Assembly (NCBI RefSeq): GCF_035658495.1
Contig: NZ_CP141944.1
Coordinates: forward strand, 2,010,001 to 2,074,000
Reading direction: 5' to 3'
DNA length: 64,000 nt
From: Novosphingobium sp. RL4
Lineage (GTDB): Bacteria; Pseudomonadota; Alphaproteobacteria; Sphingomonadales; Sphingomonadaceae
In this document: piece after piece, positions 45,230 to 52,580 of the stretch
Layout of the letters: each line of letters begins with the position of its first letter
Position numbering within the stretch: the stretch's first letter is position 1
Program-made: the position numbers and the translations under genes
The notes under the pieces: generated by a model
Database searches by the model: none
Told to the model about the DNA's origin: nothing
The model's input: only the letters and a program-made list of their open reading frames with translations

Positions 45230-46903
45230 TCAGATGCGTGCGGTGTTCGCAGCGCTGAGTACTGCGCGGACGCTGGCGGTGGCCACGTCCTCGTCGATGC
45301 CGACGCCCCAGATCACGCGGCCATCGGGGGCCACGCATTCCACGTAGGCCGCTGCACGCGCGTCGGAGCTCTTGCCCATCGAGTGCTCTGCATAGTCGCG
45401 CACGTCGAGCGTGACACCGAAGCTCTCGGCCAGCGTGGCCGTAACCGAAGAGATCAGGCCGTTGCCGCGTCCGGATACCGACTGCTCCTTGCCGTCCACG
45501 CCGATCTTACCGGCGAAGACGCGGGTGCCGTCGGCGGCCTTGGCTTCTTCCCAGTCGATGAGCTGGAAGTGCTGCGGGTCGTCGATGCGGTAGGCCTTGC
45601 GGAAGACCTCCCAAATGTCCGAGGCCTGGAGTTCGCGGCCCAGTTCGTCAGCCAGTTCCTGCACATGCTTCGAGAAGTGCGCCTGCATGCGCTTGGGCAG
45701 TTTCAGGCCCTGGTCCTGTTCGATCACCCAGGCGAAACCGCCCTTGCCGGACTGCGAGTTGACGCGGATCACGGCTTCGTAATCGCGGCCGAGATCGGCG
45801 GGATCGATAGGCAGGTAGGGCACGGACCAGATTTGGTCGTTGCGCTTTTCCTGCGCGGCGAAGCCCTTCTTGATGGCGTCCTGGTGGCTGCCCGAGAAGG
45901 CGGTGAAGACCAGTTCGCCGCCATAGGGATGGCGTTCGCCGACCTTCAGCTGGTTACAGTATTCCACCGTCTGGATCACTTCGTCGATGTCCGAGAAGTC
46001 CAGCTCGGGGTTCACGCCCTGCGTGTACATGTTCATTGCCACGGTGACGAGGCAGCAATTGCCGGTACGCTCGCCATTGCCGAACAGGCAGCCTTCGACC
46101 CGGTCCGCGCCAGCCATCAGGCCCAGTTCGGCGGCAGCGACGCCGGTGCCGCGGTCGTTATGGGTGTGCAGCGAGATCACTGCCGATTCGCGGTTCGGCA
46201 GGTTCCGGCAGAAATACTCGATCTGGTCGGCATAGACGTTGGGCGTTGCCGCCTCGACCGTTGCCGGCAGGTTGAGGATGATCGGATTTTCCGGCGTCGG
46301 CTGGAGAATTTCCATCACCGCCTCGCAGACCTCGATCGAGAAATCGAGTTCGGCGGTCGAGAAGGTCTCGGGCGAGTATTCGAACTGCCACTTGGTGGCG
46401 GGATACTTCGCCGCCTGATCGCGCAGGATCCTGGCGCCGCCTTGCGCGATGCCCTTGATCTCTTGCTTGTCCATACCGAACACCACGTTGCGCCACAGCG
46501 GCGAGACGGCGTTGTAGAGGTGGACAATCGCGGCGTGGACGCCTTCCAGGCTCTCGAACGAGCGGGTGATCAGGTCTTCCCGCGACTGGGTCAGCACCTG
46601 CACCAGCACGTCTTCGGGAATGCGGTCGTTCTTGACGAGGCCGTTGATGAAGTCGAACTCGGTCGCACCCGCGCTGGGAAAGCCGACTTCGATTTCCTTG
46701 AGGCCGACCTTGACCAGCAGGTCGAAGAAGCGGTTCTTCTTTTCGGCGCCCATCGGGTCGATCAGTGCCTGGTTGCCGTCCCGCAGGTCGGTCGAGAGCC
46801 AGCGCGGCGCCTTGGTGATGACCTGCGAGGGCCACTGGCGGTTCGGCAGGTCGATCTGCGGGAAGGGACGGTACTTGACCGAGGGGTCTTGCAGCATGGT
46901 CAT
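45230..46903 (-). CDS. leuA: 2-isopropylmalate synthase
   Basis: First step of leucine synthesis: acetyl-CoA + 2-oxoisovalerate. 557 residues from ATG 46903 (MTMLQDPSVKYRPFP; a second ATG is two codons on). The TIM-barrel domain carries LSTDLRDGNQAL with the metal Asp, and SLHTHNDRGTGVAA with the HxH pair; the C-terminal allosteric domain for leucine feedback is present (GKGGFAWV... AAAYVECV). This is the longer LeuA2 form. It is preceded by a Leu-rich leader peptide and hairpins, suggesting attenuation. Its own terminator follows. Confidence 0.97.
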   Translation of the reverse strand: MTMLQDPSVKYRPFPQIDLPNRQWPSQVITKAPRWLSTDLRDGNQALIDPMGAEKKNRFFDLLVKVGLKEIEVGFPSAGATEFDFINGLVKNDRIPEDVLVQVLTQSREDLITRSFESLEGVHAAIVHLYNAVSPLWRNVVFGMDKQEIKGIAQGGARILRDQAAKYPATKWQFEYSPETFSTAELDFSIEVCEAVMEILQPTPENPIILNLPATVEAATPNVYADQIEYFCRNLPNRESAVISLHTHNDRGTGVAAAELGLMAGADRVEGCLFGNGERTGNCCLVTVAMNMYTQGVNPELDFSDIDEVIQTVEYCNQLKVGERHPYGGELVFTAFSGSHQDAIKKGFAAQEKRNDQIWSVPYLPIDPADLGRDYEAVIRVNSQSGKGGFAWVIEQDQGLKLPKRMQAHFSKHVQELADELGRELQASDIWEVFRKAYRIDDPQHFQLIDWEEAKAADGTRVFAGKIGVDGKEQSVSGRGNGLISSVTATLAESFGVTLDVRDYAEHSMGKSSDARAAAYVECVAPDGRVIWGVGIDEDVATASVRAVLSAANTARI

Positions 46904-46935
46904 GGGTAATCTCGCTCGGAAAAACTTCTTCGGTT

Positions 46936-47006
46936 AAAAGGCTTGCCGGTCCAGTTCAGGCCGGTCTTTCCGGGTCCCCTTGAGCGCCGAGCGCGCCGCA
47001 GGACCG
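46936..47006 (-). promoter_or_regulatory. leuA attenuator hairpins
   Basis: After the leader peptide stop, the minus-strand RNA can form a bulged hairpin (46964-46946, CCGG/CCGG extended by two GC pairs) followed by a T4 run (46939-46936), a weak terminator. The segment CGGTCC at 47006-47001 can instead pair perfectly with GGACCG at 46952-46947, the 3' arm of that terminator. This gives mutually exclusive structures just downstream of the Leu codons, the layout of a transcription attenuator. The fold was judged by eye. Confidence 0.55.
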
Positions 47007-47016
47007 ACGCGTCAAC

Positions 47017-47067
47017 TCACGCCCAAGGGCGGGTAAGTCGCAGGGTAAGGCCTAGAAGAAGGTTCAT
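47017..47067 (-). CDS. leuA leader peptide (16 residues, six leucines)
   Basis: ATG at 47065-47067, stop TGA at 47017-47019; the translation is MNLLLGLTLRLTRPWA. Six of 16 residues are Leu, four coded by CTT and one by CTA, codons that are rare in this GC-rich genome. It lies about 115 bp before leuA on the same strand. Leu-rich leader peptides with rare codons are the hallmark of leucine attenuators. The ATG is only about 2 bases from the predicted transcription start, so it would be translated as a leaderless mRNA, as is known for the trpL leader of Rhizobium meliloti. Confidence 0.75.
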   Translation of the reverse strand: MNLLLGLTLRLTRPWA

Positions 47068-47075
47068 TGCCGGAG

Positions 47076-47104
47076 CCTATGGGCATTCGCTTGGTCGATG
47101 TAAA
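47076..47104 (-). promoter_or_regulatory. candidate leuA promoter
   Basis: TTTACA (47104-47099) and CATAGG (47081-47076) with a 17-bp spacer on the minus strand. The expected start is near 47069, almost at the leader peptide ATG at 47067. Confidence 0.5.
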
Positions 47105-47151
47105 GCGAAAAGGGCCTTTTCCTTCCCGCAGAGGACGACGCACTTCATGAT

Positions 47152-47775
47152 CTAGGCAGGCGGAACCCTGTCGAGGAACAGACGGTCGAGCACGCTCCAG
47201 GGCAGCATCCAGAATACGGCGACAAGTGCCGCGCAGACGATGCCGAGCCACGGGGATACGAAAGTCAGCGGAATGCCGAGGGCATATACTGCCGAAGCGG
47301 CGATCCCCTTGCGGTGCGAGGCCTTGTGATAGCGGCGGCTGGCAGCGGTGCGTGTGCCGGTGGCCGCGATCCGTCCTTGCAGCAGGACATAGGCGAGGGC
47401 AGGCGTCAGCATCGTTGCCAGATAGAGCAGGGTCGCCTCGCGACTGAAGTGATGCTCGCCGAGATAGGCGGTGGAGAAGGGGATCAGCGAGAGGGTGAAC
47501 AGCAGCAGCATGTTCGACCACAGCAGCCCGCTGGTCACGACCCGCGCATGGCCGAGCAGGCGGTGGTGATTGACCCAGTAGATCGCGACGTAGGCATAGC
47601 TCAGCACATAGGCGATGAAGATCGGCCAGAGTTGCCAGAGCGCCTTCAGTCCCTCGGTGACCGGGGTTTTCAACTCCAGCACCATGATGGTGATGATGAT
47701 GGCGAGCACGCCGTCCGAGAACGCCTCGACGCGGGCGAGGCCGTCCTCGCGCTCGATATCGTCAGCTTCGTTCAT
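47152..47775 (-). CDS. TMEM175-family potassium channel-like protein
   Basis: 207 residues from ATG 47775 (MNEADDIEREDGLARV), with CGGAG upstream. Family hallmark FSDGVLAIIITIMVLEL in the first helix (the FSD motif), then five more hydrophobic helices; six in total, as for bacterial TMEM175 proteins. Members conduct potassium without a classical selectivity filter. The gene lies upstream of the leuA leader region on the same strand. Confidence 0.9.
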   Translation of the reverse strand: MNEADDIEREDGLARVEAFSDGVLAIIITIMVLELKTPVTEGLKALWQLWPIFIAYVLSYAYVAIYWVNHHRLLGHARVVTSGLLWSNMLLLFTLSLIPFSTAYLGEHHFSREATLLYLATMLTPALAYVLLQGRIAATGTRTAASRRYHKASHRKGIAASAVYALGIPLTFVSPWLGIVCAALVAVFWMLPWSVLDRLFLDRVPPA

Positions 47776-47851
47776 CCGGGGCTCCGTTACATTCCAGCAA
47801 TGGTGCTTGGAGGAGCGGAGCGCCCGGATCAAGATGTCAGATGGTATGGGA

Positions 47852-48169
47852 TCAGGTGCAGGTGAAGCCCTTGATCTTGCCGTCATCGCCGACCTGGACG
47901 TTCAGGCGGTCGGGCCGGTAGTCCATGGTCACGGCAGAGCCGGGCCTGATGACGCGCATCGGCTTGTCGCCGCGCGATGCGGTGATTGCGGCGATAACCT
48001 CGTCGCTGGCAGGCTGGCCTACGTAGGAAGCGAACTGTTCGGCGCCGCAGCTCGGCTCCATCGACGGCGGGGTTGCATCGGCCACTTTGTCGTTCCCGGT
48101 ACTGGCGCAGGCAGAAAGGGCGAAGAGGGCCGTGGCCAGGGTGATAGTCGCGGTCAGTCTGGTCTTCAT
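47852..48169 (-). CDS. I78-family peptidase inhibitor lipoprotein
   Basis: 105 residues from ATG 48169 (MKTRLTATITL), with a perfect AAAGGAG upstream; eight codons of open frame before it are ignored. Lipobox LSAC at about 17-20. The mature part shows the elastase-inhibitor pattern CGAEQFASYVGQP, RVIRPGSAVTMDYRPDRLNV, ending GFTCT, with two Cys for a disulfide. Probably guards the periplasm against serine proteases. Confidence 0.88.
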   Translation of the reverse strand: MKTRLTATITLATALFALSACASTGNDKVADATPPSMEPSCGAEQFASYVGQPASDEVIAAITASRGDKPMRVIRPGSAVTMDYRPDRLNVQVGDDGKIKGFTCT

Positions 48170-48968: not shown

Positions 48969-50622
<1,654 letters not shown>

Positions 50623-50653
50623 GATATGTCTTTCGGATCCTGCGCGCGCGTTG

Positions 50654-52396
50654 TCAGACCAAAGCCTTGGCTTCGTCGTCCATCGTGCCGGCGACGGTAT
50701 CGCCGTAGAGGATCATGTCCGTATGGGCCGCGCCCGAGGGGATCATCGGGAAGCAGTTCGATTCCTTGGCGACGAGGCAATCGACGATGACGGGGCCGTC
50801 GTAGTCGATCATCTCCTGGATACCGGCATCGAGCTGGCTTTCGTTCTCGATGCGGATGCCCTTCCAGCCATAGGCCTCGGCCAGCTTCACGAAGTCCGGC
50901 AGGCTGTCCGAATAGGACTGCGAGTAGCGGCTTTCGTACGTCAGCTCCTGCCACTGGCGGACCATGCCCATCCACTCGTTGTTGAGGATGAAGATCTTCA
51001 CCGGCAGGCGGTACTGAGTGGCGGTGCCCAGTTCCTGGATGTTCATCTGGATCGAGGCGTCGCCCGCGATGTCGATGACGAGGCTGTCCGGGTTGCCGAG
51101 TTGCGCGCCGATCGCGGCGGGCAGGCCGTAGCCCATGGTGCCGAGGCCGCCCGAAGTCAGCCACTTGTTCGGACCGAAGAAGTGGAAGTACTGCGCCGCC
51201 CACATCTGGTGTTGGCCGACTTCGGTGGAGATCACCGGGTCCTTGTCCTTCGTCAGCTCGAACAGGCGCTGGACCGCGAGCTGCGGCATGATCGCCTTCT
51301 TCGAGAGCGGGAAGTAGAGGCTGTTCTTGCCGCGCCATTCCTCGACGCGGGCTTTCCAAGGCGCCAGGTCCTGGCCTTTGCGATCACCCCAGAGCGTCAG
51401 GATCTGGTCGAGCACGGTGGCGCAATCGCCGATGATCGGCAGGTCGACGCGGACCGTCTTGTTGATCGATGCGCGGTCGATATCGATGTGGATCTTGGTC
51501 GAATTCGGCGCGAATGCGTCGAGGCGGCCGGTCACGCGGTCATCGAAGCGGGCGCCGATGCAGACGATCAGGTCCGCCTGGTTCATCGCCAGGTTGGCCT
51601 CGTAGGTGCCGTGCATGCCCAGCATGCCCAGCCAGTCGGCATGGTCGGCCGGGAAGGCGCCGAGGCCCATCAGCGTCGAGGTGACGGGCGCGCCGGTCTT
51701 CGCCTGAAGCTCGCGCAGCAGCTCGGTAGCACGCGGGCCGGAATTGATGACGCCGCCGCCGGTATAGAGCACCGGGGCCTTGGCCTTGGCGATCAGTTCG
51801 ACGGCCTGCGCGATCTCGTCCGCCGTGCCTTCGGTGCGCGGCGAATAGCGCTGGCGGCGCTGCGTCGGCGTGTCGTTCCAGATGGCGCTGGCGATCTGGA
51901 CGTCCTTGGGAATGTCGATCAGAACCGGGCCGGGCCGCCCCGAAGTGGCGATCTGGAACGCCTCGTCGATGGTCGCGGCAAGGTCTGCCGGATCCTTCAC
52001 CAGGTAGTTATGCTTGGTGCAGTGACGCGAGATGCCGACGGTGTCCGCTTCCTGGAACGCGTCCGAGCCGATCAGCGCGGTGGGAACCTGGCCGGTGATG
52101 ATGACCAGCGGAATCGAATCCATGAAGGCGTCGGCAATGCCGGTGATGGCATTGGTGGCGCCAGGGCCCGAGGTGACGAGAACGACGCCGGGCTTGCCGG
52201 TCGAGCGCGCGTAACCTTCGGCCGCGTGGGCCGCGCCGGCTTCGTGACGGACCAGGATGTGCCGAAGTCGCTCGTCGCCGAATAGAGCATCGTAGATCGG
52301 TAGCACGGCGCCGCCGGGATAACCGAATACGAATTCGACTCCCTGCTTGACCAGGCTTTCGACCAGGATGTTCGCGCCGCTGCGCTCTTCAGTCAC
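50654..52396 (-). CDS. ilvB: acetolactate synthase large subunit
   Basis: Catalytic ThDP/FAD subunit of the biosynthetic enzyme for Ile, Val and Leu. 580 residues from GTG 52396 (VTEERSGANILVESL), with AAGGA upstream; longer frames to a TTG lack family similarity. Catalytic Glu in LVRHEAGAAHAAEGYA, FAD region GARFDDRVTGRLDAF, and ThDP motif GDASIQMNIQE with NNEWMGMV. Upstream lies a 200-base leader with a terminator hairpin. Forms an operon with ilvN. Confidence 0.98.
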   Translation of the reverse strand: MTEERSGANILVESLVKQGVEFVFGYPGGAVLPIYDALFGDERLRHILVRHEAGAAHAAEGYARSTGKPGVVLVTSGPGATNAITGIADAFMDSIPLVIITGQVPTALIGSDAFQEADTVGISRHCTKHNYLVKDPADLAATIDEAFQIATSGRPGPVLIDIPKDVQIASAIWNDTPTQRRQRYSPRTEGTADEIAQAVELIAKAKAPVLYTGGGVINSGPRATELLRELQAKTGAPVTSTLMGLGAFPADHADWLGMLGMHGTYEANLAMNQADLIVCIGARFDDRVTGRLDAFAPNSTKIHIDIDRASINKTVRVDLPIIGDCATVLDQILTLWGDRKGQDLAPWKARVEEWRGKNSLYFPLSKKAIMPQLAVQRLFELTKDKDPVISTEVGQHQMWAAQYFHFFGPNKWLTSGGLGTMGYGLPAAIGAQLGNPDSLVIDIAGDASIQMNIQELGTATQYRLPVKIFILNNEWMGMVRQWQELTYESRYSQSYSDSLPDFVKLAEAYGWKGIRIENESQLDAGIQEMIDYDGPVIVDCLVAKESNCFPMIPSGAAHTDMILYGDTVAGTMDDEAKALV

Positions 52397-52580
52397 AACA
52401 TATTCCTTTTCCGACTCGTGGGCGTTTCCCGAGGGATGGGCTGCCCTTCGAATGTTGCGCGCCAATCACGGTGCACATTACCAAAAAACCACAGTTCGCT
52501 TGTTGGCGAACTATAATGAAACCGACCCGACACGACGGGCGCCGTGCCGGGTCCTCCCTCTCCTCCCTGCATACTTTCAT
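52389..52580 (-). CDS. possible ilvB leader open frame (63 codons)
   Basis: ATG at 52578-52580, stop overlapping the ilvB GTG start (TGTGACTGA). Translation begins MKVCREEREDPARRPSCRVG, then FIIV coded by TTC ATT ATA GTT; ATA is very rare in this genome. The Ile-Ile-Val codons lie immediately before the 5' arm of the terminator hairpin. Against a classical leader peptide: it has no stop before the hairpin and no ribosome site. The ATG is about 7 bases from the predicted transcription start. I list it as a candidate only. Confidence 0.3.
   Translation of the reverse strand: MKVCREEREDPARRPSCRVGFIIVRQQANCGFLVMCTVIGAQHSKGSPSLGKRPRVGKGICCD
52483..52511 (-). terminator. attenuator-type terminator in the ilvB leader
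   Basis: On the minus strand GTTCGC (52511-52506) and GCGAAC (52499-52494) pair around CAACAA, extended by one A-T pair, then after TGTGG a T6 run (52488-52483). It lies about 90 bp before ilvB and downstream of the predicted promoter, so it acts inside the leader. Confidence 0.65.
52524..52553. promoter_or_regulatory. strong hairpin in the ilvB leader
   Basis: GACCCGACACG (52524-52534) and CGTGCCGGGTC (52543-52553) pair in 10 of 11 positions around an 8-base loop. It is the first of two hairpins in the leader; a polypurine GGGAGGAGAGGGAGG precedes it on the minus strand. Confidence 0.6.

Follow-up and report, generated by a model that had tools for sequence, protein, structure and literature searches.

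Is the synthesis of leucine in Novosphingobium sp. RL4 governed by translation of a short leader peptide in front of leuA? The question is raised by a short interval in the 64,000-nucleotide stretch of DNA that was analysed (the window), for which the original prediction proposed a leucine attenuator started on a leaderless mRNA. The leu leader of E. coli is a classical attenuator with control codons in a short leader ORF. The leuA gene of the window (45230..46903, minus strand) encodes 2-isopropylmalate synthase, the product matching TIGR00970 over the cut-off. Between leuA and a gene ending at 47152 the minus strand contains an ORF running from ATG to TGA (47067-47017) that encodes MNLLLGLTLRLTRPWA, confirming the 16-residue peptide with six Leu residues that had been claimed. 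The six codons comprise four CTT, one CTA and one CTG. CTT and CTA had both been described as rare in this genome, a description that holds for CTA but not for CTT, which is only fairly uncommon: in 38 window ORFs selected by GC3, CTA accounts for 0.8% and CTT for 14.2% of the Leu codons.

The suggested comparison of the leader across sphingomonad leuA loci was made with the loci whose LeuA most resembles that of the window, taken as the best 80 out of 590 confirmed. By record title these belong to Novosphingobium, Erythrobacter, Croceicoccus and their kin, with a few metagenome bins that have wider or odd labels. A counterpart of the leader was present in 80/80, in support of the predicted leucine leader peptide in front of leuA. 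The ATG ORFs of these loci end in LRLxRPWA, LRLxRPRA, LRLxRPRT or LRLxRP and are followed by leuA. The N-terminal residues are variable and the 3' core CGACTTANNCGCCC is nearly invariant; since the third codon positions of the core are included in this near-invariance, its conservation exceeds coding demands. Judged from sequence comparison, the leader peptide is real.

The conserved RNA structure of the leader was missed in the original prediction, and the hairpins named there are not it. The structure consists of P1, a 10-bp helix formed by the last codons of the leader with a downstream segment, closed over an inner hairpin, P2. In the window, the 5' arm of P1 (CCCTTGGGCG, 47029-47020, minus strand) is part of the RPWA codons and overlaps the end of the ORF; it pairs with the 3' arm (CGCTCAAGGG, 46986-46977) at 10/10 positions, one of them G-U. 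The arms of P2 are CGCGTCG (47005..47011) and CGGCGCG (46992..46998), likewise on the minus strand. Generally the 5' arm of P1 overlaps the last codons of the leader, usually including the stop codon. Across relatives CCCTTGGGCG pairs with a downstream CGCCCAAGGG-like segment, and the two arms covary: compensating arm pairs are CCCTTAGGCG with CGCCTAAGGG, where the stop codon is TAG, CCCCTGGGCG with CGCCCGGGGG, and CCCCTGAGCG with CGTTCAGGGG. In a set of 88 loci, comprised of 81 from sphingomonads including the window and 7 from a pattern search of the class, P1 paired at ten positions in 70, nine in 15 and eight in 3 when G-U was allowed and the best placement taken. Only 13 of 1760 shuffled tails reached 10/10 pairs.

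RNAalifold applied to alignment A1 proposed nine P1 pairs unprompted. In alignment A2, 97.7% of the P1 cells and 75.1% of the P2 cells were paired, the latter rising to 85.3% in A4. Sliding an arm out of place in A2 lowered the paired cells from 88.6% to 34-56%. Cells with two-sided change in P1 and P2 of A2 numbered 48, with 20 in P1, against 19.3 in shuffles, none of 500 reaching 48. The number of pairs with two-sided change was 10, a count reached by 35/500 shuffles, which counts against the structure. The class-wide alignment A4 gave 165 such cells, 90 in P1, against 54.4 in shuffles; A4 was fitted to a model and its covariation count favours the structure, while A2 was unfitted with the structure drawn from the same sequences. 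One antisense row (L068) is present among the 89 of A4 and of covariance model R2. The fold z-score in the window was -3.99 for the P1-P2 hairpin and an unremarkable -0.51 for the whole leader.

The leader extends well beyond the family of the window. The pattern search, conducted with 289 genomes of the class, matched 8, of which 5 lie outside the family and have a third arm variant. Covariance model R1 matched in 62/385 sampled Alphaproteobacteria genomes and model R2, based on a wider set, in 117/385 (116 once and one twice), representing 64 families by hand count. Approximately 4 chance matches are expected at E <= 0.01, the E-values being rough owing to a short calibration, and thus chance cannot explain the spread of 117; the 268/385 genomes without an R2 match count against the leucine-leader model set out below. 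A phylum-wide draw yielded matches in 39/249 genomes, all of them Alphaproteobacteria, although the draw's share outside the class is not given. The loci inspected were all 118 class-draw matches, including that of the window, and those of 12 of the 25 matched phylum-draw genomes new to the class draw. Outside the window, 128/130 loci directly precede leuA, as recognized by a LeuA motif downstream. All 128 LeuA are at least 59% identical to one of seven NCBIfam-checked LeuA, the nearest type being TIGR00973 in 117 and TIGR00970 in 11; for the class-wide loci, the start of LeuA was assigned by hand or with a simple Shine-Dalgarno (SD) rule. One exception, L149, has no LeuA motif in the available stretch. 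The other, L228, is the second, weak match in one genome, with a threonine-dehydratase-like gene downstream and no Leu codon at the control place described below. In one genome family (f14) the same leader precedes both TIGR00970-like (L108, L113) and TIGR00973-like LeuA (L172, L190), a pattern that suggests either that the leader stayed in place while the enzyme gene behind it was replaced, or that the leader was gained repeatedly.

Within the genome of strain RL4 the leuA site is the sole match to the leader model at E <= 5. ORFs that by eye look like ilvB, ilvH and ilvC (48969-52465, minus strand) are located a few kb upstream of leuA and share its strand, and no obvious leader ORF rich in Ile, Val or Leu was seen before ilvB. 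A search of window positions 46000-48000 with Rfam 15 gave no match to the leader. It returned a Guanidine-II riboswitch-like match (47706-47752, minus strand) that lies inside an upstream ORF and scored 18.7 bits against a gathering threshold of 32, and is probably due to chance.

The last Leu codon of the leader, CTT at 47035..47037 on the minus strand, lies 8 nt before P1 and is the proposed control codon. With the register assigned automatically and without any demand for CTT or CTA, the corresponding place was CTT in 111 and CTA in 9 of the class-wide loci, together 120/128; the 8 exceptions by eye resemble misplaced arms. A codon pattern that did demand CTT or CTA, so that its own counts of these codons are no proof alone, covered 209 loci with a few registers off. 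The codon preceding the control codon was CGA in 163/209 and otherwise mostly Leu, and the stop codon followed 4 or 6 codons past the control codon in 199/209 and 7 to 21 codons past it in ten, some of the ten with doubtful register. Since the position of the stop varies and the distance to P1 does not, the spacing from control codon to helix is the one that is fixed. Counting back from the control codon in the class-wide set, Leu accounted for 22-88% of residues at codons -2 to -9, compared with 9-15% at -10 to -12. The A after CUU and the uncommon CGA in the core CGACTTA (47040-47034) are nearly invariant, though the residue after Leu varies.

The original prediction also included a good -35/-10 pair and a start of transcription close to the ATG. 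The hexamers TTTACA (47099..47104) and CATAGG (47076..47081, minus strand), the latter 17 nt past the -35 and ending 8 nt before the ATG, fall in blocks at approximately -38 to -31 and -15 to -9 of the ATG. These are the strongest blocks before the last base in 80 distinct upstream regions, with little at -8 to -4. The pair is thus present and conserved in relatives, but a strict sigma-70 scan of the window lists no promoter. Promoter spacing places the predicted transcription start at 47067..47069, at or no more than 2 nt from the leader ATG. Of the 81 sphingomonad leaders, 84% had a promoter-placement score of at least 9, compared with 3% of control positions, and SD-like 4-mers precede the leader ATG in 6/81, results that support the leaderless start. 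The -10 block ends in AGG in 56/81 and, were transcription to begin further upstream, might act as a weak SD; 14/81 sphingomonad leaders, mostly of an Erythrobacter-like group, score below 9, and some have AAGG there, which counts against a leaderless start. Class-wide, 24% of 118 leaders scored at least 9 against 7% of control positions. A leaderless transcript is therefore predicted with good support for most sphingomonad loci and is likely for some other lineages, for example L165, L171, L175 and L191; it is not predicted as general. Public TSS-seq data exist for N. aromaticivorans DSM 12444 and Rhodobacter sphaeroides (GEO GSE150944, cited in PMC7471390).

As far as comparison of loci can establish them, the ORF, P1, the fixed distance from CUU/CUA to P1 and the linkage to leuA are features of this leader. 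They probably belong to a ribosome-mediated leucine leader in which a short Leu-rich ORF and the very stable P1/P2 hairpin are followed by a spacer of approximately 50 nt before leuA. In sphingomonads, RNA polymerase would start at the leader AUG and ribosomes would initiate on an mRNA that has no 5' UTR. A shortage of leucyl-tRNA would make the ribosome wait at a Leu codon. Unwinding of mRNA by the ribosome starts approximately 11 nt from the first P-site base, and P1 would begin 11 nt from that base when the last CUU occupies the A site. Stalling at the last CUU or any earlier Leu codon could then leave P1 folded and leuA expressed. With plentiful leucine the CUU would be decoded and the ribosome would enter P1, with the stop codon inside or just past the 5' arm, so that P1 opens and expression falls. 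The enrichment of Leu codons where a stalled ribosome would leave P1 folded makes it more likely that P1 is the ON structure. Counted against this model is that it gives no reason for the invariance of CGA and CUU-A. Also counting against it are at least five loci (L143, L225, L189, L194 and L167) in which the leader ORF extends beyond the 5' arm of P1, apparently spanning the entire hairpin in L143 and L225.

For the output step, one guess is that Rho loads on the longer unfolded and untranslated stretch once P1 is open; a translational effect is also possible. The median distance to the leuA ATG is 90 nt from the leader stop versus 51 nt from the end of P1 (202/209 loci). The median C/G ratio from the stop to leuA is 1.08, which gives no compositional hint for Rho. 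The mutually exclusive alternative helix expected of an attenuator was not found, the 3' arm of P1 having no conserved partner in the spacer above shuffles (0.268 vs 0.281; 202/209 loci); there was a small excess of partners at the SD (0.111 vs 0.080) and at the coding start (0.112 vs 0.073 shuffled). Exposure of the SD was computed for 137 loci, comprised of the 81 from sphingomonads and 56 of 61 class-wide loci (L112, L126, L141, L145 and L149 left out), as were the terminator and +1-frame tests. The mean was 0.44 for free RNA, 0.49 with a ribosome stalled at CUU and 0.51 with one at the stop (Wilcoxon p 0.006 and 0.00008 versus free), and changes of more than 0.2 were upward in 24 loci and downward in 13. 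Sequestration of the SD switched by ribosome position was rejected, the effect being small and mixed. Exposure of the start-codon region was 0.60, 0.46 and 0.54 for the same three states, and since the two regions shift oppositely these results lend no clear support to an output step. Also considered was a programmed +1 shift at CUU-A. The +1 frame was open through the 3' arm in 121/137 loci, slightly high against 112 +- 4 with shuffled loops, and the idea was dropped since 16 loci are closed.

Of the features of an attenuator, a short leader ORF carrying codons for the amino acid produced is present, and an intrinsic terminator (hairpin and U tract) before the gene was not found. The classical arrangement originally proposed, in which CGGTCC/GGACCG is the antiterminator and a hairpin ending in T4 the competing terminator, is on this evidence highly improbable. 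The two segments do exist in the window (47006-47001 and 46952-46947) but outside it are shared only by the nearest relatives, L002 and L047, while most of the 80 relatives lack GGACCG and keep P1. The CCGGCC/GGACCGG hairpin (46946..46964, minus strand) is local and unconserved, its T4 starts 6 nt beyond the arm, and the scan of the window recognized no terminator-like site there or elsewhere. Among the 137 loci, 5 terminator-like sites were found versus 3.2 in shuffles, and no intrinsic terminator is conserved. A reading with the opposite sign for P1 deserves more weight, although it too is rather unlikely: a ribosome held at the last CUU would keep P1 open with leuA on, and its release at the stop would let P1 close and repress. 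The usual footprint of a ribosome at CUU would cover part of the 5' arm, and the spacing between CUU and P1 does not vary; when exposed, the 3' arm (AGGGG, AAGGG) looks like a sequence for ribosome binding, and masking the 5' arm raises SD exposure slightly. Leu codons, however, are enriched further upstream, where stalls would leave P1 closed and starvation would repress, and a median of 51 nt separates the end of the exposed arm from leuA.

Two further readings assign control to the peptide itself or to a binding partner of the RNA. A TnaC-like arrest peptide, in which nascent L-x-R-P at the stop codon stalls the ribosome on free leucine, would fit the many leaders that terminate in L-x-R-P-stop. 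The invariant C-terminal residues at the stop codon that mark TnaC-like peptides are missing, and the candidate was rejected: the R is sometimes C, G, S, H, V, N or T, the PWA class has two extra residues, and six loci (L165, L171, L175, L191, L206 and L226) have Leu in place of the Pro before the stop, three of them (L175, L191 and L206) with a matching change in the 3' arm. Conservation of the RNA pairing rather than of the residues makes the arrest peptide very doubtful. Slightly less remote, but still improbable, is that P1-P2 is a protein- or ligand-binding RNA with the short ORF overlapping incidentally, similar to the protein binding proposed for the actinobacterial LEU element. The hairpin is compact and stable, with a median of -34 kcal/mol at 30 C (202/209 loci). 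Against a binding role, the loop and P2 sequences vary and it is the coding CGACUUA that makes up the strongly conserved unpaired bases, as seen in comparisons that took in 73/81 leaders and 60/87, and the Leu content of the ORF is conserved.

In contrast to classical Leu/Trp attenuators, the leuA leader has no conserved terminator/antiterminator pair. Vitreschak et al. reportedly dealt with attenuation in proteobacteria in 2004. Among the closest known systems is the actinobacterial LEU element (PMC1262725), compared here by its published description. Both lie before leuA, contain a short ORF with a run of Leu codons, and have a base stem made with leader-ORF sequence. In the LEU element the partner of the run of Leu codons is the Shine-Dalgarno box of leuA, and a pseudoknot has been proposed, whereas in the leader described here the codons after the Leu run, usually with the stop, pair with a segment ending a median 51 nt before the leuA ATG. 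The trpL leader of Sinorhizobium meliloti (PMC7298713 and PMC10117765) is similar to the present leader in having control codons in a short leader ORF; its leaderless transcript starts at the AUG, as predicted for the sphingomonad form. The uORFC-8-2 motif before cysS in Rhodobacterales (PMC8632094) and ilvB-II of Corynebacterium (PMC10272879) likewise are RNA motifs containing a leader ORF with codons for the product amino acid; each has an intrinsic terminator and precedes another gene. Papers containing phrases such as 'upstream of leuA' or 'leuA leader' all dealt with actinobacteria, judging by their titles. A survey of RNA motifs in alphaproteobacteria from 2005 (PMC1273637) mentions an ilvB leader peptide, and its main text has no word beginning 'leu'. 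Literature searches, which did not extend to supplements or to most subscription papers, found no alphaproteobacterial leuA leader. There is an even chance that the leader represents an unreported RNA family of the Alphaproteobacteria, leaderless in several lineages, with an ORF ending inside its own regulatory helix and control exerted without an intrinsic terminator or SD sequestration, in which decoding of a single late CUU or CUA melts the helix, and which is kept with leuA across LeuA families.

Such a family would give leucine synthesis a defined and covarying leader RNA throughout a class for which searches turned up none, apparently without the textbook terminator, which makes the output step a matter that can be tested. 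The sphingomonad form would join the trp leader of S. meliloti as an amino-acid leader that starts directly at AUG. The presence of the leader with two LeuA families suggests a regulator that lasts longer than the enzyme gene under its control.
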